This document shows, one piece after another, positions 4,464 through 40,984 of a stretch of DNA of 40,984 nt (position 1 is its first letter; every line of letters starts with the position of its first letter). The stretch spans positions 1 through 40,984 of the forward strand of contig JAOZKI010000018.1 of NCBI GenBank assembly GCA_029935455.1, written 5' to 3'. Made by a program: the position numbers and the translations under genes. The stretch is from Lysobacterales bacterium. GTDB taxonomy: Bacteria; Pseudomonadota; Gammaproteobacteria; Xanthomonadales; SZUA-36. The notes beneath the pieces were generated by a model. That model had not been told where the DNA came from. It ran no database searches and saw only the letters and a list, made by a program, of their open reading frames with translations.

Positions 4464-4488
4464 TCCGCCCTTTTGCTCAGCGAGCGCG

Positions 4489-9825: not shown

Positions 9826-9842
9826 CGTGCTTCAAACTCCTA

Positions 9843-11662: not shown

Positions 11663-11694
11663 GGGCTTGCATGCTTAAGGCTAAAAATATCCAC

Positions 11695-11712: not shown

Positions 11713-11772
11713 TATGGACATTATAGACACACTATGGGAGACTCCGCACCTGTTTTACAGGAATAAGAACAC

Positions 11773-13119: not shown

Positions 13120-13139
13120 ACCCGAACCGGAGAACGACT

Positions 13140-16302: not shown

Positions 16303-16312
16303 GGATAAGGGT

Positions 16313-17518
16313 ATGAAAACCTTCAATATCGACTCCCCCATGCACCACAAAACCAAGGTGTTTCCGAGTCCGTTTCATAGCCGTCAGGCCGAATGGAACG
16401 AGAATAAGGAATGGTCGCGCTGGTATGACTACCTGTCCGTACCGTCCTACACGGACGAGACCATGGAGTACTTTGCCGGACGCAATACCTGTGGCGTTTT
16501 CGACATCACGCCCATGACCAAACACCTGATCACCGGTCCCGATGCGCTGCCGTTTATGAACCGGCTGGTCACCCGCGATGTGAGTAAACTCAAACCCGGA
16601 CGGGTGGGCTATTCGGTCTGGTGCGATGATCGTGGTCAGGTCATTGACGACGGCACGATCTTTCATCTGCAACAAGGCCAGTACCGCCTCTGCTCCCAGG
16701 AGCACCAGATTGACTGGCTCATGATCAATGCGCACGGCTTCGATGTCAGTATCGTCGAGGACACGCACGATGTGGCGGGGCTGGCACTGCAGGGCCCCAC
16801 TTCCTGCGCCGTGTTGCGCAAGATGAATCTGCCGGGCATCGAAAACCTGACGCCCTTCGGCATGGCCAGCTTTGACTTCGAAGGCACGCAGCTGATGATT
16901 TCCCGCACCGGCTTCACCGGCGACCTCGGCTATGAGCTGTGGATTGACCCGGACCACGCAGAGGTGCTCTGGGACCGTCTGTTTGCCGCTGGCGAACTGC
17001 ACGGCATACGACCCATGGGGTCTGATGCGCTGGAAATGTTGCGCATTGAAGCCGGCTTCATAATGGCCGGGGCGGACTTTGCACCAGCGCTGCACACGGT
17101 GCGCTCCAAAAATACACGCTCCCCCTTTGAACTGGGTCTGGACTGGCTGGTGGATTTCAAAAAACCGGTCTTCAACGGCCGCCAGGCGCTGCTGAAAGAG
17201 CAGCAGCAGGGCTCGCGTTATGCCTTGGTAAAACTGGATATCGAGGACAACAAGGCCGCTGAGCACTCCTATGTTTACGACACGCGGGAGCGCAATATCG
17301 GCTGGGTGACCTCCGCCATGTGGTCGCCCTCGGCGAAGAAGAACATCGCCCTGGCCACGGTGAAACGGCCCCATGGTAAGGTCGACGAGCGCATGCTGGT
17401 GGAAATCTACTACCAGCGTGAGTTGGCCTGGTCGCGAAAGATGGCCCAAGCCGTGGTGGTGGAGCAGCCCTTCTGGGATCCACCACGTCGCCGTCAAACG
17501 CCTCCGGCGGACTGGTAA
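16313..17518 (+). CDS. GcvT-like folate-dependent aminomethyl/methyl transferase
   Basis: 401 residues, about 30-40 longer than typical glycine cleavage T protein. The GcvT fold signatures are clear: FDITPMTKHLITGPDA, the DDRGQVIDDG segment (residues 105-114) corresponding to the GxxxDD region with the catalytic acid, and SRTGFTGDLGYELW. C-terminal GCV_T_C-like sequence includes GWVTSAMWSPSAKKNIALA. No gcvH, gcvP or lpd gene is nearby, so this is not the glycine cleavage system. Stand-alone relatives remove methyl or methylene groups onto tetrahydrofolate, as in dimethylglycine/sarcosine metabolism and DmdA-type DMSP demethylation. In this operon it is a good candidate for the demethylation step, but the donor molecule is unknown. 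Confidence 0.88.
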   Translation: MKTFNIDSPMHHKTKVFPSPFHSRQAEWNENKEWSRWYDYLSVPSYTDETMEYFAGRNTCGVFDITPMTKHLITGPDALPFMNRLVTRDVSKLKPGRVGYSVWCDDRGQVIDDGTIFHLQQGQYRLCSQEHQIDWLMINAHGFDVSIVEDTHDVAGLALQGPTSCAVLRKMNLPGIENLTPFGMASFDFEGTQLMISRTGFTGDLGYELWIDPDHAEVLWDRLFAAGELHGIRPMGSDALEMLRIEAGFIMAGADFAPALHTVRSKNTRSPFELGLDWLVDFKKPVFNGRQALLKEQQQGSRYALVKLDIEDNKAAEHSYVYDTRERNIGWVTSAMWSPSAKKNIALATVKRPHGKVDERMLVEIYYQRELAWSRKMAQAVVVEQPFWDPPRRRQTPPADW

Positions 17519-17549
17519 GCCCCATGAATGGTCACCTGCAGGTTCCCCT

Positions 17550-21224: not shown

Positions 21225-22598
21225 ATGAATGACATTTCGCCCGAAAACGAACTTGAAGCTTTTCTAGAACAGCACCCGGACACGCGCTTTATGGACGTGT
21301 TCGCCGCCGATATCAATGGCGTGCTACGTGGCAAGCGAATTCAGCGCGACGACTTCAAAAAGCCATTCCGCAAAGGCTCCAACTTCTGTGCTGCCTCAAC
21401 GGTCATGAACGTCCGTGGCGAATCGCCTGAAAGTGTTAAATACGGCGCCCATGACGGTGACCCGGATATCCGGAGCGTCGCCGTCCCCGGTTCCCTGGCG
21501 CCTGTACCCTGGGCCAGCGTCCCCACGGCCCAGTGCATGCTGGAGCTACAGGAATTTGATGGCACGCCGTATTTTCTCGATCCGAGGAATGTGCTGAAGC
21601 GCGCCATGCAGCCCCTGCTGGACCTGGGCCTACAGCCGGTACTGGCCACGGAGCTGGAATTCTATCTGGTGGAATACGATGGTGACACCTTTGTGCCGCG
21701 CATGCCCAAAATCCCGGGTTCTGACTGGGATCAACTGGGCGTCCAGTTCGCCAGCTTTGATGATCTGGACGATGTGGAACCCTTTCTCGTGGATCTGGAT
21801 AAGTTCTGCCGTCAGCAACAGGTGCCAGCCGGCGCAGCGCTGGCGGAATATTCCCCGGGGCAGTTTGAAGTCAATCTGAATCACATCGCGGACCCGGTGG
21901 TGGCCTGCGACCATGCCCTGTTACTCAAGCGCGCGGTCAAAGCCGCAGCGAAAAAGAACGGGCTCACCGCCTCGTTTATGGCCAAGCCTTTCCAGGAACA
22001 TGCGGGCTGCGGGCTGCATATTCACCTCAGCCTGCTGGATCAGGATGGCAACAACATTTTTGCCGGCAGCAGCACCGATGGCGACTGGTCCGACCGCCTG
22101 CGCCACGCCATTGGCGGCATGGCCGCAACCATGACCGAGTCCATGGCCGTATTCGCACCTAACGCCAACTCCTATCGTCGCTATGCCCCCGGTTTTTTCG
22201 TGCCCGCAACCCCGAGCTGGGGGCCCAACCATCGGGACCTGGCCCTGCGCATCCCGGTATCCCGAGCACAAAACCGGCGCGTGGAACACCGGGTGTCCGG
22301 CGCAGATGCCTGCCCCTACCTGGTGGTTGCTGCCATTCTTGCCGGCGTCCATCACGGGCTGACGCAACGCTGCGAACCGGAAGCCATGACGCCGGAGCGT
22401 GAGGATGTGGATTACCAGGTCAGTCTACCGGTGCGCTGGTCCCAGGCACTGGATGCCTTCGAGGCCGGTAGGATTCTGCCCGAATACTTTGGCCGGGAGT
22501 TTCACCAGGTCTATGGCCAGGCCAAGCGCGAGGAGTGCAACCTATTCCACGCAGAGATCACCGACCGTGATTACGAGTGGTACCTGCGGGCCGTCTAG
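21225..22598 (+). CDS. Glutamine synthetase-fold gamma-glutamyl ligase, PuuA-like
   Basis: 457 residues, last gene of the catabolic operon, 40 bases after the aldehyde dehydrogenase with an AAGGAAAAG ribosome site. Beta-grasp N terminus (FMDVFAADINGVLRGKRI) is typical of gamma-glutamylpolyamine synthetases. The catalytic core shows ELEFYLVE, NLNHIADPV, MAKPFQEHAGCGLHIHLSL, the ATP-site block NANSYRRYAPGFFVPATPSW and the ADACPYLVVAAILAG segment. The family ligates glutamate's gamma-carboxyl to an amine such as putrescine or ethanolamine using ATP; true GlnA is less likely given its N terminus and operon. It may mask a primary or secondary amine before oxidation, or capture methylamine or ammonia as a gamma-glutamyl amide. 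Confidence 0.9.
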   Translation: MNDISPENELEAFLEQHPDTRFMDVFAADINGVLRGKRIQRDDFKKPFRKGSNFCAASTVMNVRGESPESVKYGAHDGDPDIRSVAVPGSLAPVPWASVPTAQCMLELQEFDGTPYFLDPRNVLKRAMQPLLDLGLQPVLATELEFYLVEYDGDTFVPRMPKIPGSDWDQLGVQFASFDDLDDVEPFLVDLDKFCRQQQVPAGAALAEYSPGQFEVNLNHIADPVVACDHALLLKRAVKAAAKKNGLTASFMAKPFQEHAGCGLHIHLSLLDQDGNNIFAGSSTDGDWSDRLRHAIGGMAATMTESMAVFAPNANSYRRYAPGFFVPATPSWGPNHRDLALRIPVSRAQNRRVEHRVSGADACPYLVVAAILAGVHHGLTQRCEPEAMTPEREDVDYQVSLPVRWSQALDAFEAGRILPEYFGREFHQVYGQAKREECNLFHAEITDRDYEWYLRAV

Positions 22599-22717: not shown

Positions 22718-24229
22718 ATGACCCCACCACGCAAAATTCTTATCGTCGGCGGCGGCACCGCCGGCTGGATGGCCGCCCTGCATATGCAGCATCTCTGGGG
22801 CGACCGCGACATGGAAATCACCCTAATTGAATCGGCCCGCATTGGTACCGTCGGCGTCGGTGAAGGCACCACGCCGCTGATTAAGGAGTTCTTCGACCGG
22901 CTCGGCATTCCCGAGAGCGAGTGGATGCCCGAGTGCGCAGCCACCTATAAATGTGGCATTGCCTTCCCGGACTGGTCGACCGTTGAAGGGCATGAAACCT
23001 ATTTCCATCCCTTTTTCTCGGAGCAGGACCGGGCCCACGTTAGTCATTTCTGGGACAACTGCAACCTGCGACGGGACGGCTTTGATATTCCCGCCCATCC
23101 GGACGACTATTTCGTCTCCACCGCCATGGTGCGGCAAAACCGCTGCCCTATAGCGCAGACGCCGGGCGTACCGAACGCGGTCTATGGCTATCACTTCGAT
23201 GCCGCGCTCATGGGCCAGTATTTTCGCAAGAAAGCGATTGAGTTGGGTGTGCGCCACGTTGAGGACACGATCGAGCGCGTGCGACTGGGAGAGGACGGCC
23301 ATATCGCTGCCGTGGAGACCGAACAGCACGGCGCCCTGGAGGCGGATTTCTTTGTGGACTGCACCGGCTTCCGGGGCCTGCTGATCCGCGAGGCCCTGGG
23401 CGAGGAAATGCGCTCCATGCGCGACTACATGTTTAACGACGGTGCCATTGCCATTCCCACGCCGCATGAGGAGGGCCAGGCGCTTTCCTCGGAAACCGTT
23501 TCCAAGGCCCTGAGCCACGGCTGGTGCTGGCATATCCCGCTGGTCACCCGTATGGGTAATGGCTACGTGTTCAGCACGGATTACATCAGCCATGATGAGG
23601 CAGAGGCAGAGTTTCGTGAGTACCTGGGCGAGCGCGCCGAAGGACGCGAGGCCCATCGCCTGTACTGGAAACCGGGACGCTTGGACAATCATTGGCAGAA
23701 AAACTGCCTGGCGGTGGGCCTGAGTCAGGGCTTTCTCGAGCCCCTCGAGGCACTCATGATTAATGTCATCCAGAGCACCATTGAGAGCTTTACGACCTGT
23801 TTTGAACAGGGCGATTTCACCCATCAACAGCAAGACAGGTTCAATCAGAACGTGAACCTCTTTATCGACGGCATCCGCGACTACCTGCAATTGCATTACA
23901 AGATCAATACGCGCAGCGATAGCCAGTACTGGATTGATACGCGGGAGAATCCGCACATGTCCGATCACCTGCGTACGATTCTGGAGGCCTGGGACAGCAA
24001 CGCGGATTTTGACCGCGTTCTCTTCGACCATATCAATCAGCAGATTTACCCGCGCACCAGCTGGTATTGCATGCTGGCCGGCATGGGGCGCTTTCCCGAG
24101 GCCAACAAACACGCCATGCGGGTTCCCGTAAGACACCAGCAGCGCGCCGCTGCCGCCAGCCAACAGCAAGCCATGGACTTCTGGCCCCATCAGGAGTATC
24201 TGCAGCAGATTTACGCCGCCAAGGCCTGA
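22718..24229 (+). CDS. Flavin-dependent halogenase, tryptophan halogenase family
   Basis: 503 residues. Compared from memory with PrnA: the FAD motif GGGTAGWMAA is at residues 11-20, GVGEGTTP follows, and K78 in TYKCGIAF aligns with the catalytic PrnA Lys79. The family signature WxWxIP is present as GWCWHIPL (about 267-274), and FLEPLEALM places E344 at PrnA Glu346. The residue after it is alanine instead of the PrnA serine. The catalytic apparatus for chlorinating or brominating an aromatic substrate with FADH2, O2 and halide is thus intact. The required flavin reductase is absent from the window. Many environmental family members sit near TonB receptors and their substrates are unknown; a tie to the NRPS locus 11 kb away is possible but unproven. 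Confidence 0.92.
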   Translation: MTPPRKILIVGGGTAGWMAALHMQHLWGDRDMEITLIESARIGTVGVGEGTTPLIKEFFDRLGIPESEWMPECAATYKCGIAFPDWSTVEGHETYFHPFFSEQDRAHVSHFWDNCNLRRDGFDIPAHPDDYFVSTAMVRQNRCPIAQTPGVPNAVYGYHFDAALMGQYFRKKAIELGVRHVEDTIERVRLGEDGHIAAVETEQHGALEADFFVDCTGFRGLLIREALGEEMRSMRDYMFNDGAIAIPTPHEEGQALSSETVSKALSHGWCWHIPLVTRMGNGYVFSTDYISHDEAEAEFREYLGERAEGREAHRLYWKPGRLDNHWQKNCLAVGLSQGFLEPLEALMINVIQSTIESFTTCFEQGDFTHQQQDRFNQNVNLFIDGIRDYLQLHYKINTRSDSQYWIDTRENPHMSDHLRTILEAWDSNADFDRVLFDHINQQIYPRTSWYCMLAGMGRFPEANKHAMRVPVRHQQRAAAASQQQAMDFWPHQEYLQQIYAAKA

Positions 24230-28520: not shown

Positions 28521-28591
28521 GGCGTCGCGACATGGACGGTGCGTTACTGGCGCACATGAGACCGAGCAAAAAGGCACAGGCACCCCGCATT

Positions 28592-29410
28592 ATGGCCGAC
28601 AATCTACTGGGCAAAAACACGACCTATCCGGAGCACTTTGCGCCCGAGGTCCTGTTCCCTATTCCACGCAGCAAGAGTCGGGAAGCGCTGGGCATAGCAC
28701 ATCCGCCGCCCTTTAGCGGGAGCGACCTGTGGAATGCCTATGAAATCTCCTGGTTACAACCCAACGGCCTGCCCCAGGTAGCCGTAGGCGAGCTTGTCTT
28801 TGATGCCCACAGCCCAAACCTGGTGGAGTCCAAGTCGCTGAAGTTGTTTCTCAATTCACTCAATAATGAGCGCTATGAGTCGCTCCATGCCGTTGAGGAC
28901 TTGTTGGAAAAGACGCTGGGCGAAGTCAGCGGCAAGCCCGTATCCGTCTCCTTACGAACCCTTGACGATCCTGAGCTGACCACCGCCGCGACCCTGCCCG
29001 GACGATGTATCGATGGGCAAGACCTGTCCATCAGCAGCTACCTGATTGACGCCAGTTTGCTGCGGCTTAAGCGCCACTCCGCCCCCATGGTTGAAGAGAC
29101 CTTGCACTCCCACTTGCTGCGCACCAACTGCCCAGTCACCAATCAACCCGACTGGGCCAGCGTCCTGATTCGTTATGCAGGCGCACCGATCGATGAGGCA
29201 GCGCTGCTGCGCTATCTGGTTTCCTTTCGCAACCACAGTGACTATCACGAGCAATGTGTGGAGCGCATTTATCATGATCTGCTCACCCAATGCCAACCGC
29301 AGCGCCTGACCGTGCAGGCGCTCTACACGCGTCGCGGCGGCCTGGATATCAACCCGTTTCGCAGTAACGATGTGCAAGAGCCCATTCGTACCCGGCTCTG
29401 GCGTCAATAG
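28592..29410 (+). CDS. queF: NADPH-dependent 7-cyano-7-deazaguanine reductase, long form
   Basis: 272 residues, the length of the two-domain gammaproteobacterial QueF. It reduces preQ0 to preQ1 in queuosine biosynthesis in the cytosol. The active-site cysteine is C180 in LRTNCPVTNQPDW with the partner D187. The QueF ESKS motif is at 79-82 (LVESKSLKLFLNS), and HEQCVERIYHDL and YTRRGGLDINPFRS are nearly as in the E. coli enzyme. The start at 28592 is chosen because MADNLLGKNTTYPEHF aligns with the E. coli N terminus; an upstream in-frame ATG would add 20 poorly conserved residues. It is followed after 18 bases by a sulfotransferase gene on the same strand, an unusual partner. Confidence 0.96.
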   Translation: MADNLLGKNTTYPEHFAPEVLFPIPRSKSREALGIAHPPPFSGSDLWNAYEISWLQPNGLPQVAVGELVFDAHSPNLVESKSLKLFLNSLNNERYESLHAVEDLLEKTLGEVSGKPVSVSLRTLDDPELTTAATLPGRCIDGQDLSISSYLIDASLLRLKRHSAPMVEETLHSHLLRTNCPVTNQPDWASVLIRYAGAPIDEAALLRYLVSFRNHSDYHEQCVERIYHDLLTQCQPQRLTVQALYTRRGGLDINPFRSNDVQEPIRTRLWRQ

Positions 29411-29428
29411 CGAGCAGCCAACGCGGCC

Positions 29429-30187
29429 ATGCCCATCCATCTGATCCACTGCTCATATCATAAGTGTCTGACGGTCTATTTCAGCCGCGTCATGCATGCG
29501 CTCTTCAATCGCTGCCTGCGCTGGAGTGGCGGCTATGAACACTTCAACAGCGATGCACAGGCCTTCTATGCGGCCCTGGGCAAAAACCGCCTGAGCTCCG
29601 TAAACAACCATGCACTGGACCTGCAGCGGCTCGGTGATTTCCGCCTCACCCGTTTCATCCGTGACCCACGCGACTTGCTCGTTTCCGGCTACTTTTATCA
29701 CCGTCGCGGCAGTGAACCCTGGTGCACCCTCGAAAACCCTCAGACCGCTGACTGGCAGCATGCAAATGGTCAGATCCCGTCCGGCCTGCGCCAGGCGGGC
29801 GGAAGTTTTGCTCACTACCTGCAGACCGTGGACAAGGAACAGGGATTGCTGGCCGAAATGGAATTTCGGAGCCCACACTTTGACGCCATGGAGACCTGGC
29901 CCGACCCGCAGGAGAACATTCTTCTGTTTCGCTATGAGGACATGCCGGGACGGGAAGTGGAAGTTTTTAGCGCGATTTTTGATCACTATGGATTGTCTCC
30001 GCTGGAGCAGCGTTTGGGGCGTTTTTTTGCCGATCGCTATTCCCTGGCCCGACGCCGCAAAAAGGACCGACACATTCGGAACCCCAGCAGCGGTCAATGG
30101 CGTCAGCACTTCACACCCCAGGTCACGGCCGCCTTCAATGAGCGATGGGGCCGTCTAATCCAACAATTGGGCTATCCGGAAAACTGA
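29429..30187 (+). CDS. Sulfotransferase family protein
   Basis: 252 residues. The N-terminal IHCSYHKCLTVYFSRVM occupies the place of the PAPS 5'-phosphosulfate loop, with HKCLT instead of the common PKSGT, so the loop is non-standard. LTRFIRDPRDLLVSGYFYH matches the 3'-phosphate binding motif well, and NPSSGQWRQHFTPQV is the usual C-terminal RxxGxW-like block. It probably transfers sulfate from PAPS to a carbohydrate or lipid-linked acceptor in the cytosol. It sits between queF (18 bases) and a glycosyltransferase (4 bases), so glycan or glycolipid sulfation is the likeliest setting. Confidence 0.82.
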   Translation: MPIHLIHCSYHKCLTVYFSRVMHALFNRCLRWSGGYEHFNSDAQAFYAALGKNRLSSVNNHALDLQRLGDFRLTRFIRDPRDLLVSGYFYHRRGSEPWCTLENPQTADWQHANGQIPSGLRQAGGSFAHYLQTVDKEQGLLAEMEFRSPHFDAMETWPDPQENILLFRYEDMPGREVEVFSAIFDHYGLSPLEQRLGRFFADRYSLARRRKKDRHIRNPSSGQWRQHFTPQVTAAFNERWGRLIQQLGYPEN

Positions 30188-30191
30188 TTTC

Positions 30192-31544
30192 ATGGCCGCT
30201 ATTTTGGTCGTCAGCAATGGACCCAGAGGCATGATCTACACCTGCCTCGAATTGTGTCGCCGGCTGCAAACAGCGGGGCACGAAGTGGTTTTTTATGGTC
30301 CGCAAGAACATCAGGCTCTGTGCCACAGCAACGGGCTTGCCTTCAGAGCACTGATACCTGACCAACGACAGAAGTGGCGCCAGCAAGACAGTCAGCTTGG
30401 CGCCTGGACCCGGTGGCGCAAACGCCAGCAAAGGCGGCTTGAATTGCTGGCCAGCACTCAGGTCGACTCGTTCCGGCAGGAACTGAAAGCACGGCAGCCA
30501 GACCTGGTCATGCTGGATGCGGAGATGCAGGAACATATCCTTGCGACGCTGGCCTCGGGGCAGCGCATGATGCTTCTTAATACCTTTGCTTCCATCTGGC
30601 GCCTGCCGCATAACCCCCCGCTACATTTGCCCATCCGCCCCGGGAAGGGCTGGCGAGGCAGTCCCTGTGGACAGCGATTGAGTTGGGCGGGCTATCGTCT
30701 GCACAAGCAGTGGCTGGGTGTGAGACAGTGGTTAACACGCATCGGCAGCGATCGCCGGAGCCTGCTGCGCGCGCAGGCCAGAACAGCGGGCTTCAAGCTG
30801 CGCAGGGTCACGGACGGGAGTCACTGGCTTTCGCCTTACATCTTCCCCGACCTACCGGTGTTGTGCCTGCACGCTGCAGCGTTTGATTTCGGCAGCAAAA
30901 CACCCGCATCGGTGTTGCATGCGGGGCCGCTGATTCTGGCGGAGCGGGCCGATGCCTTACGCGGCGCGGACGCGGCGCGGCTTGCGGCCGTGCTGGCACG
31001 ACATCAGCAGGCGGGGACACCGCAACGGGCACTGATCTATGTTGGCCTGGGCTCCTGCTTCACCCACCATGAGCAGTGGCTGCAGCGGCTCCTGCAGACC
31101 GTTTCACAACATCCGGGCTGGGAATTGATCCTGTCCCTGGGGGGGCAAAACGCGCCGCAGTTTCAACAGTATGCGGGAGAGCAGGTGCATATCTTCGACT
31201 GGTTACCGCAACTTACTACGCTGGCCTGTGCCGACCTGGCCGTGGTCCACGGCGGCATTAACACGATTGACGAATGCGTCATGGCCAACGTGCCCATGCT
31301 GGTCTGCAACGGCGGAATTCGTGACATGCCCGGCAACACCATGCGTGTGCTGCATCATGGCATTGGCCTGGCAGCTGATCCACAGCGTGATGACGAGAAC
31401 CAATTGATGGCCCAGTTAAGCACCTTGCTGGGCGATGCAGCGCTGCGTTCGCGTCTGCGCTCCATGCGTGAGCGTTATTTTCGCGAACGGGACCAGCAAA
31501 CGCTGGAGAAGGCGCTGGAGACCGTGTTGGCCAGCGAAGCCTAG
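30192..31544 (+). CDS. UGT/MGT-type glycosyltransferase (GT1 family)
   Basis: 450 residues with a GT-B fold outline. The N-terminal domain begins AAILVVSNGPRGMIYTCLELC, a variant of the GHxxP acceptor-site region. The C-terminal nucleotide-sugar domain has YVGLGSCF, DWLPQLTTLACADLAVVHGG and GINTIDECVMANVPMLVCNG (about 335-380), the signature block of UDP-glycosyltransferases acting on small molecules or lipids. Four bases separate it from the sulfotransferase, so the pair probably modifies one product. It ends in a CTAG whose complement is also the stop of the opposing GT4 gene. Confidence 0.87.
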   Translation: MAAILVVSNGPRGMIYTCLELCRRLQTAGHEVVFYGPQEHQALCHSNGLAFRALIPDQRQKWRQQDSQLGAWTRWRKRQQRRLELLASTQVDSFRQELKARQPDLVMLDAEMQEHILATLASGQRMMLLNTFASIWRLPHNPPLHLPIRPGKGWRGSPCGQRLSWAGYRLHKQWLGVRQWLTRIGSDRRSLLRAQARTAGFKLRRVTDGSHWLSPYIFPDLPVLCLHAAAFDFGSKTPASVLHAGPLILAERADALRGADAARLAAVLARHQQAGTPQRALIYVGLGSCFTHHEQWLQRLLQTVSQHPGWELILSLGGQNAPQFQQYAGEQVHIFDWLPQLTTLACADLAVVHGGINTIDECVMANVPMLVCNGGIRDMPGNTMRVLHHGIGLAADPQRDDENQLMAQLSTLLGDAALRSRLRSMRERYFRERDQQTLEKALETVLASEA

Positions 31545-32710
31545 CATTCCAGCAGAGTTTGAAACGCCCGCTCAGTCTTTTCCGCGACCACGGGCCAGGC
31601 ATGCGCCGCTGCCAGTACCTTGCCACCGGCGGCCAGGCGCTGACGCAGGCCAGGATCAGCCAATGCCCGCACCACGGCAGCCGCCAGCGCGCCCGCATCT
31701 TCTGGGGGCACCAGCAGGGCATTGATGCCATCATCCAGCATCTCGGGCCAGGCCCCCACTTCAGTGGCGACCACCGGCACGCCGAGGGCCAGCGCCAAAT
31801 ACAGGACGCCAGACTGGGAGATATGCCGGTAGGGCAGCACCAGCAGGTCCGCAGCGGCAAACCAGTTGGCCACCTCCGCAAAGGGCACGTAGTCAAATAG
31901 GCAAATGGCACCAAGAGTCTGCGCTCGCTCAGCCAGTGACTGTTGCTCGGCTGCGCTCAGGCGAACCGGGTCACCAGCAATCAGCAGTCGTGCCGCGGGC
32001 TGCTGCGCCTGAATCCCGGGCCAGGCATCCAGTAGCAGATCCAGCCCCTTGTAATGCCTGAGATAGCCAAAGAAAAGTGCCGTTGGAGCATCTGCTGCCA
32101 GGCCCAGAGCGTTGCGAGCCTGGTGAGGATCTTCAGCGGCCTCCACGCGGGAGAAGAAACCATAGTCGCCATGCGGAATAACGCAGCAGCGCTCTGTGGG
32201 AACCCCGAACTCCTGCTGTAGCCGCTTCTGGTCCACACGCGAGTGGGCGATCAGCAAGTCCGGCAATGCATGAATCCGACGAGACAACGCCTGCTGTAAT
32301 GGCACCGGCTCATGCGGCGTCACATTGTGCACCGTTGCCACCAGGGGAATGCCAAGACGTTTCAGCGCGGCCAGATATAGCACTGCACTACCACTGGCCT
32401 CGTGCAAATGTATGACATCTGGCTCCAGTGCTTTGGCTATTCGTAGCGTGTCGCGTACGGCACGCAAAACATCGAACTTACGGCCCATGGCAGCACCGAA
32501 ACGAGAGCGGCGCTTACCAGCATCCTGCCCAGCCCGAGCCAGCTTCTGATGGATGGTTAAGCCGGGTGGCCGGGGCTGATCTCTGAGTTCCCAGTCCGTA
32601 ACGGTAAGTAAATCCACCTGATGACCGCGCGCAGCCAGGGCGCCGGCCAAATTAAAGACGTAATGACAAAGGCCGCCACGTCCGAAGGTCTCGATTTCAA
32701 GCACCTTCAT
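31541..32710 (-). CDS. GT4-family glycosyltransferase
   Basis: 389 residues from the ATG at 32710 with GAGG nine bases upstream. GT-B enzyme: N-terminal VLEIETFGRGGLCHYVFNLA contains the Gly-rich loop. HLHEASGSAVLYLAALKRLG and VATVHNVTPHEP lie in the acceptor domain, and LFFGYLRHYKGLDLLLDAW plus ISQSGVLYLALALGVPVVAT form the donor site, with the second half of the family's E-x7-E motif changed. It is cytosolic or peripheral at the inner membrane and transfers a sugar from a nucleotide donor with retention. It is alone on the minus strand here and ends against the UGT gene with a four-base overlap. Confidence 0.9.
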   Translation of the reverse strand: MKVLEIETFGRGGLCHYVFNLAGALAARGHQVDLLTVTDWELRDQPRPPGLTIHQKLARAGQDAGKRRSRFGAAMGRKFDVLRAVRDTLRIAKALEPDVIHLHEASGSAVLYLAALKRLGIPLVATVHNVTPHEPVPLQQALSRRIHALPDLLIAHSRVDQKRLQQEFGVPTERCCVIPHGDYGFFSRVEAAEDPHQARNALGLAADAPTALFFGYLRHYKGLDLLLDAWPGIQAQQPAARLLIAGDPVRLSAAEQQSLAERAQTLGAICLFDYVPFAEVANWFAAADLLVLPYRHISQSGVLYLALALGVPVVATEVGAWPEMLDDGINALLVPPEDAGALAAAVVRALADPGLRQRLAAGGKVLAAAHAWPVVAEKTERAFQTLLEC

Positions 32711-32933
32711 AGGATGCCTCGCGGTATCGTTGATGAAAAACCAACGGTCTACTTGCGCTGGATTCGCGCTATCCTATCACCCGAAGGGCACGATGCCGTA
32801 CACTCTCGCCTGTTGCCCGCACCTGGCACCCTAGAATTTACGGTAATGACCTACGCACCCAAGAAACCGGCCATAGCCACGCCACCTGTTCCTGACGCAA
32901 CACCGCGCCGGTGGCTTCTCGCCCACCATTAAC
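32711..32933. other. Divergent spacer between GT4 and methyltransferase genes
   Basis: About 220 bases with no convincing gene. A TATCCT hexamer at 32770-32775 is a possible plus-strand -10 but lacks a -35 at normal distance. The short open frame here has no coding signature. The spacer must contain promoters for both flanking genes. Confidence 0.4.
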
Positions 32934-33713
32934 GTGGTACCGCGTCAAACAGCTCTACCCCAGGCGCCGTCCGCGGCGAGTTCGCAGTTGGTGCTGAGCA
33001 CGGCCGCACAAATTTACAGCGATGACGCCAGCCTCGCAGACTGGACCAGAAACTATCTGCGGCAACATCAGGGGAGATTAGCAACTGATCTCGATCTGGT
33101 GCTTAAAACCCTTCCAAAACAATGTCATGTCCTGGATGTCGGCGCCGCGCCATTTGTGACGTCTGCGGCCTTGCAAACGCTGGGATTTAAAGTCGAAGCC
33201 ATTGACCTTGAGCCAGACCGTTTCGCATCCGTGATCGCAGCTCTCAGACTGAAGGTGCATGGATGTGATATTGAGAAAGAAGCGCTGCCCCTGGCGGATC
33301 AGAGTGTCGATGCAGTGCTCTTTAATGAGCTGTTTGAACACCTGCGAATAAATCCGATTTTTACCCTGTCAGAAGTCTTCCGCGTGCTTAAACCCGGGGG
33401 ACATCTGTTACTTTCCACACCGAATCTGAGATCCTTTCGGGGTATTCGCAACCTCATCCTGCATGATCAGGGACATGCCGTGTCAGCAGGCGTCTACCGG
33501 CAGTATGCGAAACTTCAGTCCCTTGGCCACATGGGTCATGTGCGCGAGTACACGCGCCGGGAGACCGTCAGCTTCTTGAAGCAAATAGGTTTCGTCTCTG
33601 AAACGATCTATTTTCGTGGCGGCTACGGCCGCGGTCTCGTTGGTCTGGCCGAGAAGCTGGCGCCATCCATGCGTCCGTTCTTTAGCGTGATCGCCCGCCG
33701 GCCCGAACCATGA
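32934..33713 (+). CDS. Class I SAM-dependent methyltransferase
   Basis: 259 residues from a GTG at 32934; this start is uncertain because no strong ribosome site is visible and the first 25 residues look unconserved. Rossmann-fold methyltransferase: motif I HVLDVGAAPFVTSAAL, acidic end of strand 2 VEAIDLEPD, motif II region DAVLFNELFEHL, and LSEVFRVLKPGGHLLLSTPN for motif III. This Methyltransf_11/23 type O-, N- or C-methylates small molecules, sugars or lipids. It starts an operon with a sulfotransferase (ATGA overlap) and a GT2 glycosyltransferase. Base composition looks less GC-rich here than in the catabolic region, by eye only. Confidence 0.87.
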   Translation: MVPRQTALPQAPSAASSQLVLSTAAQIYSDDASLADWTRNYLRQHQGRLATDLDLVLKTLPKQCHVLDVGAAPFVTSAALQTLGFKVEAIDLEPDRFASVIAALRLKVHGCDIEKEALPLADQSVDAVLFNELFEHLRINPIFTLSEVFRVLKPGGHLLLSTPNLRSFRGIRNLILHDQGHAVSAGVYRQYAKLQSLGHMGHVREYTRRETVSFLKQIGFVSETIYFRGGYGRGLVGLAEKLAPSMRPFFSVIARRPEP

Positions 33714-34606
33714 CAGCCGACAGCGAAATCAGTCAGCGATTTTTTCTTGTCGGAGTGCCCCGCTCCGGAACCTCTCTGCTGCAAGCACTTTTGGCCAGCC
33801 ACACGCAGATCACCTCGTTCACGGAAAGCCATTTCTTCAGCAGGCCTTACGCTTTTCTACCACTGATGGGCGCCGTTCTGCGTCGTGATCCTGCGCAACA
33901 GGTTTTCGGTTTCCTCAACGAGAACCAGTTGTCGCTGGGCGCTGCAGCGCAGTGGTTCGAACCGCCGGCACCTTTTTTTCTGAGGTTCTCTGCAAGCCGC
34001 ACCCTGGCGAGCAGCATGGTCGCTCGCCGGCTTATTGACGTCCTTGATGAAGCAGCGCAAGAAAGAGCTTCGCCCTGCTGGCTGGAAAAGACGCCACGCC
34101 ATTTACACGCTATTGCCCTTATTCAGAAGGCTTGTGGGGCGCGTGCCAAGCCGCAGTTCATCCATCTCATCAGAGGCGGCCTGCCGACAGTCACATCACT
34201 ATATCGAGCCTCACCCCAATGGCAGAGTCCGCTCTCACTGGATGCTTGCGCCGGGCGCTGGAACCAGGACCTGGCGCTTTCACTCCGCTACGCGGGCAAG
34301 CCCAACCATCATGTTATTCGCTACGAGGACCTGACCGAAGACCCAGAACGGGTTTTACGCCAACTTTTACACGCCTTACAGCTCAACTGGTCGCCAGAAA
34401 TCCTGAACCGGTACGGCCAGACGGCGCATGCGCTACGGGCTTCGGGTGAACACTGGAAACAGGGCACTGAAAGACCTATCACACCGGCAGATACAAGCCA
34501 GGAGGTGCTTGACGCGTGCCAGCGGCAGAGGGTTGAAGCGCAATTACAGCAACCACTTTATGATGCGCTCAGCCGTCACGCGATAGGGGCAAGCCGTCGT
34601 GCATAA
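33710..34606 (+). CDS. PAPS-dependent sulfotransferase
   Basis: 298 residues, start overlapping the methyltransferase stop as ATGA. The 5'-phosphosulfate loop is canonical: FFLVGVPRSGTSLLQALLAS at residues 11-30. FIHLIRGGLPTVTSLY is the 3'-phosphate binding motif, with Gly-Gly in place of the common Asp-Pro. VIRYEDLTEDPERVLRQL is the conserved downstream block of the Sulfotransfer_3 group. It transfers sulfate to a hydroxyl or amine of a small molecule, glycan or lipid in the cytosol. This is the third sulfotransferase in the window and the one closest to the NRPS operon, so it is the best candidate to sulfate an NRPS-linked product. Confidence 0.9.
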   Translation: MTADSEISQRFFLVGVPRSGTSLLQALLASHTQITSFTESHFFSRPYAFLPLMGAVLRRDPAQQVFGFLNENQLSLGAAAQWFEPPAPFFLRFSASRTLASSMVARRLIDVLDEAAQERASPCWLEKTPRHLHAIALIQKACGARAKPQFIHLIRGGLPTVTSLYRASPQWQSPLSLDACAGRWNQDLALSLRYAGKPNHHVIRYEDLTEDPERVLRQLLHALQLNWSPEILNRYGQTAHALRASGEHWKQGTERPITPADTSQEVLDACQRQRVEAQLQQPLYDALSRHAIGASRRA

Positions 34607-35369
34607 ACCCAACCAACCACTGCTATCGGTGGTCGTTCCTTTTCATAACAGCAGTAAGACCATCGAAGCCTGCATCGAATCTCTGCTTGCCTCGGCACCC
34701 GAGCCGGAAAGCCTGGAGCTAATTTTCGTCGACAATAACTCAGCCGATGAATCCCGGAACCTGGTAAACCGTTTCAGCTCCGTGACATTGCTTGATGAAC
34801 CCACACCGGGCGCCTATCCGGCCCGAAACCGGGGGGTGGAAGCCGCACGGGCGCCAATCATCGCGTTCACCGACGCAGACTGCACCGTCGACAGCGCGTG
34901 GTGCCAGGTGATTCTGGAGCGCATGAAAAACCCTGAGCTTGGGATTCTCATCGGCGCCGTGCATTTTCCCTCCAGCGCGAGCCTGCCCATGCACCTGCTG
35001 GGCGGCTGGGAGAACGCCAAAGCCCATTGGATTGCCGATCACGCTCGTGCCCAGCAGCGTATTGCCTACTGCAACAATATGGCGGTCCGCAGCAGCCTAT
35101 TCCAATCCTTGGGTCCGTTTCGAAACTGGCGGCGGGCCGGTGACAGCGAATTTGCGCAAAGAGTTGCGCTGAGGCGCCCGGAAATGACGCTCGCATTCGA
35201 CAGCAGGCTGTGCGTGGTACACCATGAATTCACCCGGCTGCGACAACGTGTTCTTCGCCTGCGGCGCTACCAGGATACGAACCAGCAAATCGAAGGCTTC
35301 GAAGAACTTTCCGCATTTCAGCGCGCCGCTGTCCTGGGTCAATGGCTCAGCGACCGGAAGCAGGGCTAG
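34599..35369 (+). CDS. GT2-family glycosyltransferase
   Basis: 256 residues from a GTG at 34599 that overlaps the sulfotransferase stop by eight bases. GT-A fold: LLSVVVPFHNSSKTIEACIE, then LELIFVDNNSADES, GAYPARNRGVEAARAPIIAF and the metal-binding DADC. The NNMAVRSSLFQSLGPF block and a downstream ED-like RRAGDSEFAQRV complete the catalytic domain. It has no transmembrane segments, so it acts at the cytosolic face. It converges on the free carrier-protein gene; both genes end in one shared CTAG. Confidence 0.9.
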   Translation: MHKPNQPLLSVVVPFHNSSKTIEACIESLLASAPEPESLELIFVDNNSADESRNLVNRFSSVTLLDEPTPGAYPARNRGVEAARAPIIAFTDADCTVDSAWCQVILERMKNPELGILIGAVHFPSSASLPMHLLGGWENAKAHWIADHARAQQRIAYCNNMAVRSSLFQSLGPFRNWRRAGDSEFAQRVALRRPEMTLAFDSRLCVVHHEFTRLRQRVLRLRRYQDTNQQIEGFEELSAFQRAAVLGQWLSDRKQG

Positions 35370-35632
35370 CGGCGCGTCGCGCTCACATAGGCAGTGAGTG
35401 CGGCAATGGTCTGGAAGTTTTCTACCCGAAAATCTGCTGGCTTCATGCCAATGGCAAACTGCTCATCGACATAGGTGGCCAGACGCAGTACCGCCATGGA
35501 ATCCAGCAGGTCACCTGCCAGCAAATCATCATCCGCATGCAGCGAGACCGGCTGCAGCAGCAATTCCTCCTGAATGTACCGGGTGATTTGCTGTTCAATC
35601 TCGTCCGTAGCGGGACCGTGTGTGTCCGTCAT
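35366..35632 (-). CDS. Free-standing acyl/peptidyl carrier protein
   Basis: 88 residues, last gene of the NRPS operon; its ATG overlaps the NRPS stop as ATGA. The carrier fold is evident: helix 1 (EIEQQITRYIQEELL), the phosphopantetheine site GDLLDSMAVLRLATYV with the acceptor serine in DSM, and a helix IV segment FQTIAALTAYV. It would be charged by a phosphopantetheinyl transferase encoded elsewhere and carry an acyl or aminoacyl group in trans, for example a fatty acid starter or a side-chain unit. Translational coupling to the NRPS makes a role in the same assembly line very likely. Confidence 0.88.
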   Translation of the reverse strand: MTDTHGPATDEIEQQITRYIQEELLLQPVSLHADDDLLAGDLLDSMAVLRLATYVDEQFAIGMKPADFRVENFQTIAALTAYVSATRR

Positions 35633-38600
35633 TTTCTGTTTTTATCCTCTCGGTCGCTCAACAGGGCTTTCAGGTGCCTGGTCCAGGCAGAAATGGTCTC
35701 CGGCCTGCGCACAAACTCCGTGTGGCTCGCTTGAAACTCATAGCTCTCCACCTCGGCGTCCAGCAGGGTTTCCCACAGCATGCGACCAGCGCTATCACGA
35801 GCCACACCTCGACCGTGATAGATGATAGCAGGCACGCCTTCGCAGGGCGTCGCCTCATAGCGTCGAAGGGCGCGATGATACACCCAACCAACATAGCTAT
35901 GACGCACTGACAGCGGCATAGGCAGACGCAGCCAGGAACACAAGGCGCCCAGCAACTGACGGAAGGTTCTCCGCACTCTGCCAACGCTTGCATTCCCTTG
36001 CTGACGCGGATCGTTACGATGCGCTTCCGTCTTGATCCGAGCGCCAGCAAACCCGGCAGCAGAGCGCATGTAACGTGCTTCATCAGGCGGGTCGAGCAGT
36101 AACAACAGTGGCACGGAAGCACCCTGCTTTTGCCACAGACGCGCCATTTCAAACGCCACCGGCGCACCGATGGAGTATCCCGCCAGCACGCTCGGTGGGT
36201 TCGTCTGCACGGCATTGATTTGCGCCAGATATTCCCGTGCCATGCTTTGAACCGTCGCCCCCGGCAACAGCGCACCCGCATCGCGATGGTCAGACAACAG
36301 ACGAACCGAGCGACCATCACCCAACAGCTCCTGCAGCTGGGTGGCTACCCGATGACCGCCATGAACCAGGCAGAGCGTAGCGCCGGCCAAGGAATGTTCA
36401 AGGACTGCAGCTTCCGGCTGCCGTGACGTGGTGGCCCGGTGCTCCCGCACTGCGGCTAACTCTCTGATGGTCGGATATTCAAAAATCTCGCTAGGTGCAA
36501 GATTTAACTCGCGCGCGCGCGCCAAAGCCACGATTCGAATGCTTTTCAGGGAGTCACCGCCGAGCGCAAAAAAATCGTCATCCAAACCGACCTGCTCCAC
36601 AGCCAGCACGCGCTGCCAGATGTCCGCCATGGCACGTTCGAAACGCGTGCCAGGTTCCCGATCGCCACCCGCACCAGGTCGCTCCATCGGTTGCAGCAGC
36701 GACAAGGCTTTTCGATCTACCTTGCCATTGGGTAAACGGGGCAAATGCTCACAGAACCCGATGCGCGCTGGCACCATATGGCGAGGCAGCTGTTCCCGGC
36801 AGTGCTCCAGTATCATTTGGTCCGTCAGCGAAATACCCGCAGCGGGAACAAGGAACGCCAGCAACTGAGGGGGCTTGCCCTGACCGGCAGGGCTTAATAG
36901 CGCTGCGGCCTCCTGAACAGCCTCATGACTGCGAAGCACCGCTTCAATCTCATTCAGTTCGATACGGTGCCCACGCAACTTGATTTGACTGTCCTGACGA
37001 CCTTTGAACAGCAGCGCCCCATGCTCGCTATAGCGCACCAGATCACCGGTTCGATAAAAGCGTGTCTGGCTATGATCCAGCGTCTGGAACGACCTTGCGC
37101 TGATATCGGGCTGTGCAAAGTAGCCAGCAGCGACACCGGCGCCGCCCACCCATAGTTCGCCATCGGCACCGATAGGAACCGGGCGCTGTTGCGGATCAAG
37201 AACCCGCAACACCGCCCCTGGAATGGGGTATCCAATCGCCGGGGCCACGCCCTTCGGGGCCGCCGTGATATCGGCCATGGTGCACCAAACGGTAGCTTCT
37301 GTTGGGCCGTATTCGTTACATACGCGCAGCAATGGCAAAGTGTTTCGTACCCGCTCCGGCAATTGCCATCCCACGGCCTCCCCAGCCACCACCAGGGTCC
37401 TCAGGGATTTCAACTTCTGCGCGGGCGCGAGTTCAATCAGGAGTTCAGCCAGGGCCGGCAGGCACAGGGTATGGCTGACCTCATAACGCTCTATAAGATC
37501 GGCCAGCGCCAGCATGTCCTGCTCCAGCGCCATTGGCGACACCAGCAAAGCCCCGCCACAGGTCAGTGGCCAGTAGATTCCGGCCACCGAGCTATCGAAG
37601 GCAAATGAGGACAGCAGCAGGAATAGGTCGGGCGCCTCGGCGTAAAACTGCTCGCGCGCCATGGTCGAAGCGAGCAGGTTTTCATGGCTGACCATGACGG
37701 CTTTGGGCTTGCCAGTGGAACCGGACGTATACATCAGGTACGCCAGATCCTGGCCCTGCAGCTCGGGTAGAGGCACAGCTTCCGGCCCACTGTGAGCAAG
37801 GGACAATGTTGCGGGCGGCAGCACACGCTCTTGCTCGAGGCCCAGCCGCTGTATCTGGGGCTCCTCGGCAATGATTTGCGCTGGCTTACAGTCCTGCAGC
37901 ATGGCCTGAATCCGCTGCACGGGATAGCTTGGGTCCAAAGGCACATAGCATGCACCGGCTCGGAGGACGCCCAGCATGGCCAGCACATATTCACCACCAC
38001 GCTCCAGCACGATAGCAACCCGATCACCAGGGCGCACCTGACGGGTAACAAGCGCCTCGGCGTAGCGCTGCGATCGTTCCCAAAGCTCGCCATAGCTGAG
38101 ACGGCCTGTCTCGACAATCAAGGCGGGTTGCTTTGGGTTTTGTCGCACCTGCACCGCAATTTGATCGAGCACGGTGGCTTGTTGCACGCCCAAAAGTTCG
38201 GGACCAAGACCCCACTGTAATAGCAATTGCTGCTCTTTGGCTGGCAATACGGGCAGGTCGGTGGCCGGGCTTTGCAGCCCATCGGACACGTGCTCGAGTG
38301 CATACGCAAATTGGTCCAGCAAGCGCCGCATGGCCGCAGGCTCGAACCGAGCGGGGTCATAAAGCGCTAGCAGCTTTGATGATGCCCCGGGCATCACAAA
38401 TATGGACAAGGCAAAATCACTTTGATCCATAGGGTCAAAATTACGGAAGCGCAACTCGCCCTCGTCACACCCGAGCTCCGGATGGTTTTCAATGACCAGC
38501 ACCGAATCAAACAGCGCGCGCCCCGCAGGAACACCACTGCAGCGTGCCACGTCCCCCAAGGGGGTGTGTTCCAGTCGCCGCAAATCCAACAAATCACGAT

Positions 38601-39558
38601 GCACCCGCTCTATCAACTCACCGAGCGTCTCGCCAGCATGGAGTTGAATGCGTATCGGCAGCGTATTGATGTACAGGCCTACGGCACGCTGAAGACCGGA
38701 TAAACCATGACCACGACCCGACAGAACCGAACCGAACACCACGTCATTGGCAGTGCCATAGGCATTCAAGACCAGCCCCCAAACCGCATAGTAAATTGCG
38801 CTGACAGTCACCTTTTTTCGCCGCGCCAGCGCGGTTAAAGCCCTATCGGTCTCCGCCGCCAGAGGCAAGCCCTGCAGCTCATGTTGCCGCTCAGCTGGCG
38901 CAGCTGCAGGAGTCGAAAACGGCAGCCTGGTCGGGTTCCTGAAGCCGTCCAGGTAGTGCTTCCAGAAGCCTTCGTTGGCAGAAAAATCCTGCGTTTGCAG
39001 CCAGGCAAGATGGGTTTTCAGTGGCGGCGCAGGCGGCAAGCTGTCTGCCTCATTATTCGACGCTGCACGATATAACTCGTGTAATTCGCGCAAGGCAATC
39101 ACCATGGACCAGCCATCCGCCAACAAATGATGACAGGTCCAAACCAGTCGATGCTGCTGGGGCCCAAGGCGCAGCAGGGCCATGCGCATGAGTGGTGCGT
39201 CCGCCAGATCAAAACCCCTGGCGCGATCCTTGTGGAGCCAGTCTTTGACCAGCCCCTCGGTTTGAGAGCCGTTATCCGTTTGCAGGTCCAGTTCCTGCCA
39301 GGGAACACTCACGGTGCCACGAATCACCTGCAGTGGCTGCTCAAGCCCCTCCCAAAGAAAAGCGGCCCGCAGTGCCTCATGACGTTGTACCACCTTCTTC
39401 CAGGCTGCCTGCAAGCGCTTGCTATCCAGGGGTCCTTCGAGATTTACGCGAATTTGCAGCACATACAATCCCGCAGCGGGATTTTCAATGCTGTGAAATA
39501 GCATGCCCGTCTGCAGGGCCGAGAGCGGATAGATATCCTGAACGTTTTCCAGCGTCAT
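35629..39558 (-). CDS. Nonribosomal peptide synthetase, terminal C-A-T-TE module
   Basis: 1309 residues. Condensation domain (about 1-440): starts DIYPLSALQTGMLFHS and has the catalytic HHLLADG near 139. Adenylation domain (about 460-960): YLMYTSGSTGKPKAVMVSH near 611, NEYGPTE near 749, YRTGDLVRYS and NGKVDRKAL near 947. Thiolation domain: DDFFALGGDSLKSIRI near 1000. Type I thioesterase: LCLVHGG, then GYSIGAPVAFEM near 1128 with the nucleophile serine, and a C-terminal ESYEFQASHTEF holding the likely histidine. It adds one residue and releases the product by hydrolysis or cyclisation. Tentative specificity-pocket residues, aligned by eye to GrsA, read D-S-A-L-V-A-E-V-W; I do not assign an amino acid. 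Its ATG overlaps the upstream NRPS stop. Confidence 0.95.
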   Translation of the reverse strand: MTLENVQDIYPLSALQTGMLFHSIENPAAGLYVLQIRVNLEGPLDSKRLQAAWKKVVQRHEALRAAFLWEGLEQPLQVIRGTVSVPWQELDLQTDNGSQTEGLVKDWLHKDRARGFDLADAPLMRMALLRLGPQQHRLVWTCHHLLADGWSMVIALRELHELYRAASNNEADSLPPAPPLKTHLAWLQTQDFSANEGFWKHYLDGFRNPTRLPFSTPAAAPAERQHELQGLPLAAETDRALTALARRKKVTVSAIYYAVWGLVLNAYGTANDVVFGSVLSGRGHGLSGLQRAVGLYINTLPIRIQLHAGETLGELIERVHRDLLDLRRLEHTPLGDVARCSGVPAGRALFDSVLVIENHPELGCDEGELRFRNFDPMDQSDFALSIFVMPGASSKLLALYDPARFEPAAMRRLLDQFAYALEHVSDGLQSPATDLPVLPAKEQQLLLQWGLGPELLGVQQATVLDQIAVQVRQNPKQPALIVETGRLSYGELWERSQRYAEALVTRQVRPGDRVAIVLERGGEYVLAMLGVLRAGACYVPLDPSYPVQRIQAMLQDCKPAQIIAEEPQIQRLGLEQERVLPPATLSLAHSGPEAVPLPELQGQDLAYLMYTSGSTGKPKAVMVSHENLLASTMAREQFYAEAPDLFLLLSSFAFDSSVAGIYWPLTCGGALLVSPMALEQDMLALADLIERYEVSHTLCLPALAELLIELAPAQKLKSLRTLVVAGEAVGWQLPERVRNTLPLLRVCNEYGPTEATVWCTMADITAAPKGVAPAIGYPIPGAVLRVLDPQQRPVPIGADGELWVGGAGVAAGYFAQPDISARSFQTLDHSQTRFYRTGDLVRYSEHGALLFKGRQDSQIKLRGHRIELNEIEAVLRSHEAVQEAAALLSPAGQGKPPQLLAFLVPAAGISLTDQMILEHCREQLPRHMVPARIGFCEHLPRLPNGKVDRKALSLLQPMERPGAGGDREPGTRFERAMADIWQRVLAVEQVGLDDDFFALGGDSLKSIRIVALARARELNLAPSEIFEYPTIRELAAVREHRATTSRQPEAAVLEHSLAGATLCLVHGGHRVATQLQELLGDGRSVRLLSDHRDAGALLPGATVQSMAREYLAQINAVQTNPPSVLAGYSIGAPVAFEMARLWQKQGASVPLLLLLDPPDEARYMRSAAGFAGARIKTEAHRNDPRQQGNASVGRVRRTFRQLLGALCSWLRLPMPLSVRHSYVGWVYHRALRRYEATPCEGVPAIIYHGRGVARDSAGRMLWETLLDAEVESYEFQASHTEFVRRPETISAWTRHLKALLSDREDKNRK

Positions 39559-40984
39559 GAGTCGTCGTCAGCGGCGGACTTTCGCAGGAGCTGCGCCACC
39601 TGAGAAAGACCCGCCTGATCCAGACCGGAGAGACCGAACGGCTCACTGTCGCTATCTCCCGGCGAATCCGGCTCCAAAGGTCCAAGCGACTCCAGATGAG
39701 CCGCAAGACGCCCCAGGGTCGGGCGCTCGAAGCAATCGGCGGCCTGTAGTCGAAAACCCGCTTCACGAGCGCGTTCCACCAGCTGGATCACACCGATGGA
39801 ATCACCGCCAAGCTCGAAGAAATTGTCATCCAGCAGCACGGATTCAAGCATCAGCACCTCGCACCAGTAACCGGCCAAAGCCTGCTCCAGATCCGTCACC
39901 GGCGGCCTGTGAGCGGCGTTTTCCTGGCGCTCCGCTGCTTGCGGCGCGGGCAGTGCGGCACGGTCGATCTTGCCATTGCTGGTGACCGGGATCGCATCAA
40001 TCTCAACCAGAAAAACCGGAACCATCGCCGGTGTCAGCCGCTGCATCAAATAGGACCGTAGCTCGTCCGTACTGACACTGCCGTCGCTGGTGAAATAGGC
40101 CACCAACTGCGGTGCGGACTGGGCCTGACGGGACAGGGTAACCACTGCCTGCAGCACGCCCTGGTAAAGCGTGACGACATGCTCAATTTCGCCGAGTTCA
40201 ATGCGGTTACCGCGGATTTTTACCTGCCCATCGCGACGTCCAAGATAGTTCAGTTTTTCACCATCCCAACGCGCGAAATCACCGGTACGGTACATGCGTC
40301 CACCCGGTCGGAACGGATCCGGCAGGAACCGCTCTGCGGTTAACGCTGCGCGCTTAAGGTAACCTTGCGCCAAGCGTTCGCCGCCAATGAATACCTCTCC
40401 AACCACGCCACGGGGAACGGCGTTGAAAAAATCATCCAGTATGTAAATGGCCGCACCATGGTCCGGCAAGCCAATGGGCACGGCTGACTCCGTGTCCCGC
40501 GCCGGGTCATAACGGTGAAAGGTGCTTCCGACAATGGCCTCGGTCGGACCGTATTCATTGATCATGACCAGGTCTTCACCGAGACACTCCAGCCCCCGGA
40601 AGGCCAACTCGGTTTTGAGTTCTTCACCACTAAACAGCAGCGTCTTAATGCGTTTGACGGGCTGCGCCGAAGGCAAAGCCAGCGCCAGATGAGACGGCGT
40701 CAGCTTGACGACATCCACCGCGTCATCAGCCATAACGGCGCGAATGGAAAGGTCTGTCCCAGACATGGGCTCGGGATAAATTTTTAGTGTGCCACCGGCC
40801 ACAAAAGGCGCAAACAGCGCGTTAATGGTGAGATCAAAACCAAAGGCGGAAAACAGCGGAAAGTTGACTGCTCCCGGTGGGCAAAGCGCATGCAGTGACC
40901 AGGAAATGTAATCGGCCAGCCCTGCATGTCCCACCATCACCCCTTTGGGCCGGCCGGTGCTGCCTGAAGTGTAGTAAACATAGG
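39555..40984 (-). CDS. Nonribosomal peptide synthetase, A-T module (5' end outside window)
   Basis: The frame is open to the right edge; the edge itself encodes the adenylation core motif YTSGSTGRPKGVMV, so at least half of an adenylation domain lies outside. Visible here: INEYGPTEAIVGS, MYRTGDFARW, IRGNRIELGEIE, SNGKIDRAAL, then a thiolation domain with DDNFFELGGDSIGVIQLV. After it comes a roughly 60-residue tail with LSGLDQAGLSQVAQLL, a short helical element often seen between NRPS proteins. Pocket residues aligned by eye read D-L-N-S-L-S-E-V-G, somewhat like asparagine-type codes, at low confidence. The stop overlaps the next NRPS start as ATGA, so the two megasynthases are translated together. 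Confidence 0.93.
   Translation of the reverse strand, partial: YVYYTSGSTGRPKGVMVGHAGLADYISWSLHALCPPGAVNFPLFSAFGFDLTINALFAPFVAGGTLKIYPEPMSGTDLSIRAVMADDAVDVVKLTPSHLALALPSAQPVKRIKTLLFSGEELKTELAFRGLECLGEDLVMINEYGPTEAIVGSTFHRYDPARDTESAVPIGLPDHGAAIYILDDFFNAVPRGVVGEVFIGGERLAQGYLKRAALTAERFLPDPFRPGGRMYRTGDFARWDGEKLNYLGRRDGQVKIRGNRIELGEIEHVVTLYQGVLQAVVTLSRQAQSAPQLVAYFTSDGSVSTDELRSYLMQRLTPAMVPVFLVEIDAIPVTSNGKIDRAALPAPQAAERQENAAHRPPVTDLEQALAGYWCEVLMLESVLLDDNFFELGGDSIGVIQLVERAREAGFRLQAADCFERPTLGRLAAHLESLGPLEPDSPGDSDSEPFGLSGLDQAGLSQVAQLLRKSAADDDS

Follow-up and report, generated by a model that had tools for sequence, protein, structure and literature searches.

The prolyl/pyrrolyl starter systems PigI/PigG/PigA, PltF/PltL/PltE, AnaC/AnaD/AnaB and Bmp4/1/3 combine a free-standing A domain, a free peptidyl carrier protein (PCP) and an ACAD-type dehydrogenase. 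Bleomycin-type glycopeptides contain histidine and are characterized by PKS and bithiazole components. Sugar and sulfate decoration occur together in the suomilide/aeruginosin family of cyanobacterial nonribosomal peptides (PMC10143770); the combination of sulfation, NRPS and glycosylation, which the initial annotation of the DNA studied here considered uncommon, is therefore not unprecedented.

We compared with these systems a locus in a window of 40,984 nucleotides from a Lysobacterales bacterium (genome G000), together with its continuation on a second contig, C7. Like the prolyl/pyrrolyl starter systems, it encodes a free A domain, a free PCP and an ACAD-type dehydrogenase whose catalytic Glu is arranged in the same way; unlike them, this set would feed a conserved two-module NRPS accompanied by a HupE permease, and the free A domain lacks Asp235. 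Its predicted product resembles suomilide and the aeruginosins in carrying sugar and sulfate. However, the sulfotransferase and methyltransferase of suomilide are NRPS-embedded domains acting on glycerate, whereas the tailoring enzymes of the window are free-standing; in addition, the window has no Choi genes and its starter chemistry is unrelated. The locus shares Asn/Asp- and His-type modules and possible glycosylation with the bleomycin type but has only two modules, a sulfotransferase, no PKS or bithiazole and no identified beta-hydroxylase. The uncharacterized locus of Leptolyngbya sp. PCC 7375 (L046/L130/L131) also encodes HupE, ACAD, free A, PCP, C-A-T and C-A proteins, a GT1 glycosyltransferase, a methyltransferase and a sulfotransferase, with the same codes in both modular A domains; only the Leptolyngbya locus has an ornithine cyclodeaminase, a WbuX-like PP-loop domain embedded in module 1, extra modules and a single-operon layout.

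The window spans all of contig C46 in a genome of 2.63 Mb and 130 contigs, so the locus breaks off at an assembly edge. The initial annotation had proposed that it runs beyond the right edge, and the rest was indeed found on contig C7 (7337 bp) of the same genome, which has a second NRPS fragment at its end. The ends of C46 and C7 share a 36-bp overlap with 92% identity. Contig C419 of the sister genome G003 corresponds to window positions 40175-40984 followed by C7 positions 7337-4251 without a gap, indicating that C7 is directly joined to C46; this join rules out a hidden third module between them. The assembled order is birA, a SPOR protein gene, tRNA-Thr(TGT), ACAD, HupE, free A, C-A-T, C-A-T-TE and PCP, and this NRPS operon is convergent with the genes for GT2, a sulfotransferase, a methyltransferase, GT4, GT1 and a second sulfotransferase.

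Pfam scans confirmed the gene classes of the window (Table 1). All classes named in the initial annotation were recovered: two sulfotransferases, three glycosyltransferases from different families, a methyltransferase, a free carrier protein and at least two NRPS proteins, namely a C-A-T-TE protein and an A-T fragment cut by the contig end. The proposed start of the locus, 28592, falls inside queF. This gene, about 90% identical in G003, is probably a neighbor outside the pathway. An ORF at 35342-35734 on the forward strand was rejected as the free carrier protein because it has no Pfam match; the true gene lies on the reverse strand. The NRPS proteins contain A, C, T and TE domains, and the motifs of the condensation, carrier and thioesterase domains are intact, among them HHLLADG (C) and GYSIG (TE) in the C-A-T-TE protein. 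Every NRPS reading frame is open except for low-quality bases at the tip of contig C7, and the ACAD and HupE frames are intact.

Table 1. Genes of the locus in the window (plain numbers) and on contig C7 of the same genome (prefix C7).
Gene product	Position	Strand	Remarks
queF (7-cyano-7-deazaguanine reductase)	28532..29410	+	
Second sulfotransferase (Sulfotransfer_1)	29429..30187	+	PF00685, 8e-9
GT1/macrolide-type glycosyltransferase	30192..31544	+	EryCIII/MGT-like
GT4 glycosyltransferase	31541..32710	-	
SAM methyltransferase	32934..33713	+	Methyltransf_23/11
Sulfotransferase (Sulfotransfer_3)	33710..34606	+	PF13469, 6e-23
GT2 glycosyltransferase	34599..35369	+	
Free peptidyl carrier protein	35366..35632	-	88 aa; D-S-M phosphopantetheine site
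NRPS module 2 (C-A-T-TE)	35629..39558	-	1309 aa
NRPS module 1, 3' part (A-T)	39555..40982	-	cut by contig end
NRPS module 1, remainder	C7:5498-7337		full protein C-A-T, about 1077 aa
Free A domain	C7:3867-5471		
HupE permease	C7:2612-3844		PF13795 (HupE/UreJ_2)
ACAD (prolyl-PCP-dehydrogenase-like)	C7:1470-2615		
tRNA-Thr(TGT)	C7:1263-1338		about 130 bp upstream of ACAD gene

The best PDB match of the ACAD is the prolyl-ACP dehydrogenase 4irn (301 bits), and the prolyl-carrier dehydrogenases 6cxt and 5zw0 also rank high. Like these enzymes, it retains the 'MxxER' Glu and lacks the Glu of short-chain acyl-CoA dehydrogenases (YVGTSEIQR). The top NCBIfam models, at scores below their curated cut-offs, are the RedW and PigA prolyl-PCP dehydrogenases; together with the 4irn match and the position of the catalytic Glu, they place the ACAD in the prolyl-carrier-protein dehydrogenase type. 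Among PDB entries, the free PCP is related to pyrrolyl/prolyl carrier proteins, PltL among them, and to D-alanyl carrier proteins. The free A domain matches LgrA best, with PltF lower in the list.

Ten-residue codes of the A domains were extracted against a GrsA sequence. In related loci, the free A domain has a proline-like code (D..Y....CK) in which Asp occupies the amino-binding position, whereas that of G000 reads CFFYLAVVCK, with C at the Asp235 position; the proline code of PltF-type enzymes, including Asp235, is thus absent. The change lies in the 'PLHFD' motif, which has become 'SHHTC' (C7 around 4480-4520) and is identical in G003. A frameshift was ruled out as its cause, since G003 has the same bases and no alternative frame is open. 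Ornithine cyclodeaminase makes proline; its gene is adjacent in three of the homologous loci, and none was found in the G000 or G003 genomes. The starter in the relatives is probably proline-derived, judging from these codes and neighbors. Proline as the starter in G000 is doubtful, because the free A domain lacks Asp235 and both genomes lack the cyclodeaminase; with the PP-loop domain described below also missing, the starter, and perhaps the activity of the cluster, is uncertain in G000.

The codes of the modular A domains are conserved. That of module 1 is DLNKLSEVGK in G000 and DLTKIGE[VI][CG]K in relatives across phyla, and it resembles Asn/Asp-type codes, suggesting such a residue at this position. 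That of module 2 is DSALVAEVWK in G000, where position 278 may be L or C owing to a possible one-residue shift, and DSAxxAEVWK in all loci compared. DSALIAEVWK is a His code that is compatible with beta-OH-His (PMC12283262), and a His-like specificity would fit module 2.

The same core, consisting of ACAD, a free A domain, a C-A-T protein, an optional PCP, HupE and C-A-T-TE, was found in at least seven other loci. These belong to the cyanobacterium Leptolyngbya (L046), a Gammaproteobacteria MAG (L047), a member of the Flavobacteriaceae (L050), an alphaproteobacterium of the Rhodobacterales (L051, no ACAD match at the cut-off) and three further gammaproteobacterial genomes, of the same class as G000 (L042, L043, L044). 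All core genes of the family are present in G000. HupE, with its HX5DH motif, accompanies the core in most loci. The module-1 A domains of Leptolyngbya (L131:2877-4139) and L047 (7109-8371) contain an inserted domain between A8 and A10, which carries the PP-loop motif SGGKDS and matches the NCBIfam WbuX-type N-acetyl sugar amidotransferase model at 1e-34, below its curated cut-off. This domain and ornithine cyclodeaminase occur in several family members; module 1 of G000 contains no such insertion. Two acidobacterial loci (L048, L049) have an ACAD 48% identical to that of G000 and a free A domain beside other NRPS genes; they lack HupE and were therefore left out of the family, and may represent a broader group of NRPS loci with ACAD and free A. 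We found no description of such a cluster in the open-access papers searched, nor any relevant paper among them tying HupE, ornithine cyclodeaminase, PP-loop/thioamide or hydroxyhistidine to one.

The link between the decoration genes and the NRPS differs from gene to gene. The sole homologues of GT1 in Leptolyngbya PCC 7375 (32% identity) and in the Flavobacteriaceae MAG (27-29%) are full-length, include the acceptor half and lie within the homologous NRPS loci. GT1 was not found in the genomes G302 and G442 or in the Rhodobacterales genome, placing decoration outside the core. The Leptolyngbya locus also encodes a Methyltransf_23 and a Sulfotransfer_3 protein, which the window's enzymes match at family level only. 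A 386-aa Leptolyngbya protein that looked GT4-like by eye was rejected as a GT4, having no PDB, Pfam or NCBIfam match. Within the taxonomic family, the methyltransferase occurs in two of the 39 genomes, G000 and G003, and the Sulfotransfer_3 protein has no match at E<=1e-20 except in G003; weak matches of about 30% identity exist in three members of the order. The 3' end of the GT2 gene overlaps the convergent carrier-protein gene by 4 bp, and GT2 is tied to the NRPS by position only. GT2 and GT4 both resemble exopolysaccharide glycosyltransferases, and membership of GT4 in the pathway is uncertain. The Sulfotransfer_1 protein has a 53% identical homologue in the family member G010, where it stands alone, away from NRPS and glycosyltransferase genes, which makes its membership doubtful; it also occurs alone in three genomes of another family. 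A search of viral contigs for the sulfotransferase gave no match. A third sulfotransferase of the window, a TPR-sulfotransferase fusion (PF13469) at 1476-3497, is far from the cluster.

These observations bear on a different reading, in which the sugar and sulfate genes are a separate locus for a glycan or glycolipid of the cell surface that lies beside an NRPS island at a tRNA-Thr hotspot. The opposite orientation of these genes to the NRPS operon, the origin of the glycosyltransferases in three different families, the exopolysaccharide-like GT2 and GT4, and the solitary Sulfotransfer_1 homologues are consistent with it. However, the sole GT1 homologues in two other phyla lie within the homologous NRPS locus, the Leptolyngbya NRPS locus has a methyltransferase and sulfotransferase as well, both are missing from the rest of the taxonomic family, and a Pfam scan of the block found no flippase, polymerase or nucleotide-sugar genes. 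A single near-identical block in G003 covers the NRPS together with GT2, the Sulfotransfer_3 protein and the methyltransferase. We therefore regard a separate glycan locus as rather unlikely, albeit the best-surviving alternative. In the genomes searched, GT1, the methyltransferase and the Sulfotransfer_3 protein did not form a polysaccharide locus free of the NRPS, the Sulfotransfer_1 protein being the exception. The restricted distribution of the sulfotransferase and methyltransferase, the placement of GT1 inside NRPS loci and the Leptolyngbya counterparts make it likely that NRPS, glycosylation and sulfation constitute one pathway. The single glycosylated, sulfated product of the initial annotation is thus largely supported for GT1, the methyltransferase and the Sulfotransfer_3 protein; the Sulfotransfer_1 protein and GT4 have no demonstrated link to it, and neither does GT2.

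The block in question was delimited by comparison with G003. G000 and G003 are about 99-100% identical from the free A domain through the NRPS, PCP, GT2, sulfotransferase and methyltransferase genes, but identity drops to 76-96% in the flanks, which comprise birA to ACAD on one side and GT4, queF and beyond on the other; this indicates that the NRPS genes and GT2, sulfotransferase and methyltransferase were exchanged as a single block. The transition in identity falls within the G003 contig C90, which favors recombination of one block; MAG cross-assembly could account for part of the roughly 99.5% identity. In a third member of the genus, G002, about 7 kb carrying other genes separates the same tRNA-Thr from a homologue of the window's halogenase; thus, the NRPS and sugar/sulfate genes occupy a single interval that varies among members of the genus. 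Gene content 3' of tRNA-Thr(TGT) differs within the genus, which suggests an integration hotspot. The halogenase gene in the window (22718-24229) is flavin-dependent, tryptophan-halogenase-like, 78% identical in G002 and outside the NRPS block. Elsewhere in the window, genes for a Rieske oxygenase, an acyl-CoA dehydrogenase, a BetI-type regulator, a class-III aminotransferase, GCV_T and an aldehyde dehydrogenase (8626-21184) adjoin glutamine-synthetase-like genes (21225-22598); the whole group looks like amine or betaine catabolism.

The explanation that we favor, with somewhat better than even confidence, is a small NRPS cluster of the cross-phylum family whose peptide is decorated by GT1 and probably by the methyltransferase, the Sulfotransfer_3 protein and GT2. 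We infer the substrates, the order of steps, the decoration sites and the role of HupE as follows. The free A domain would activate a starter acid and load it onto the free PCP, and the ACAD-like flavoenzyme would oxidize the carrier-bound starter. In the relatives, this starter is very probably proline from ornithine cyclodeaminase, oxidized to pyrroline or pyrrole; in G000, it may have changed, as the free A domain has lost Asp235. Module 1 would then add an Asn/Asp-type residue, and module 2 would add a His-type residue and release the peptide. The product would then receive sugar, methyl and sulfate groups from GT1 and probably from the methyltransferase, Sulfotransfer_3 protein and GT2, and HupE may be a permease tied to the pathway. 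The convergent orientation of the decoration genes, which are not co-transcribed with the NRPS operon, argues against this explanation. The product is likely an undescribed small natural product, as predicted from gene content.

The product might instead be a metallophore taken up or exported by HupE. The HupE/UreJ_2 protein with its HX5DH motif beside the core in most loci and the His-like code of module 2, which can accept beta-OH-His, a known metal-binding group in peptide metallophores (PMC12971057), point in this direction. However, no beta-hydroxylase was recognized on C7 or beside the NRPS, G000 has no adjacent TonB receptor or regulator, and no link between HupE and metallophores was found in the open-access papers searched; hence, we consider a metallophore unlikely. 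Decay of the cluster in this lineage to the point of yielding no functional product would account for the replaced Asp235 and altered motif in both G000 and G003, the lack of ornithine cyclodeaminase in either and the lost PP-loop domain, but appears improbable given the open NRPS frames (save the C7 tip), the intact C, T and TE motifs, the intact ACAD and HupE frames and a block recently exchanged or held near-identical between two species.

The favored reading, a decorated NRPS cluster of a cross-phylum family, connects the GT1, methyltransferase and sulfotransferase tailoring set, through co-occurrence across phyla, with an NRPS core that is conserved and seems not to have been described. 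More speculatively, and with considerable doubt, this could be an undescribed NRPS family in Cyanobacteria, Bacteroidota and Proteobacteria that makes oxidized-proline-Asn/Asp-His peptides handling metal through HupE, some members using the PP-loop domain to alter a carrier-bound residue, with the window as a decorated, starter-switched branch. Leptolyngbya PCC 7375 is a cultured relative in which the compound could be found, and the unusual NRPS-embedded PP-loop domain and the NRPS-linked HupE permease have testable roles. The scientific interest of the locus lies mainly in this cross-phylum NRPS family.
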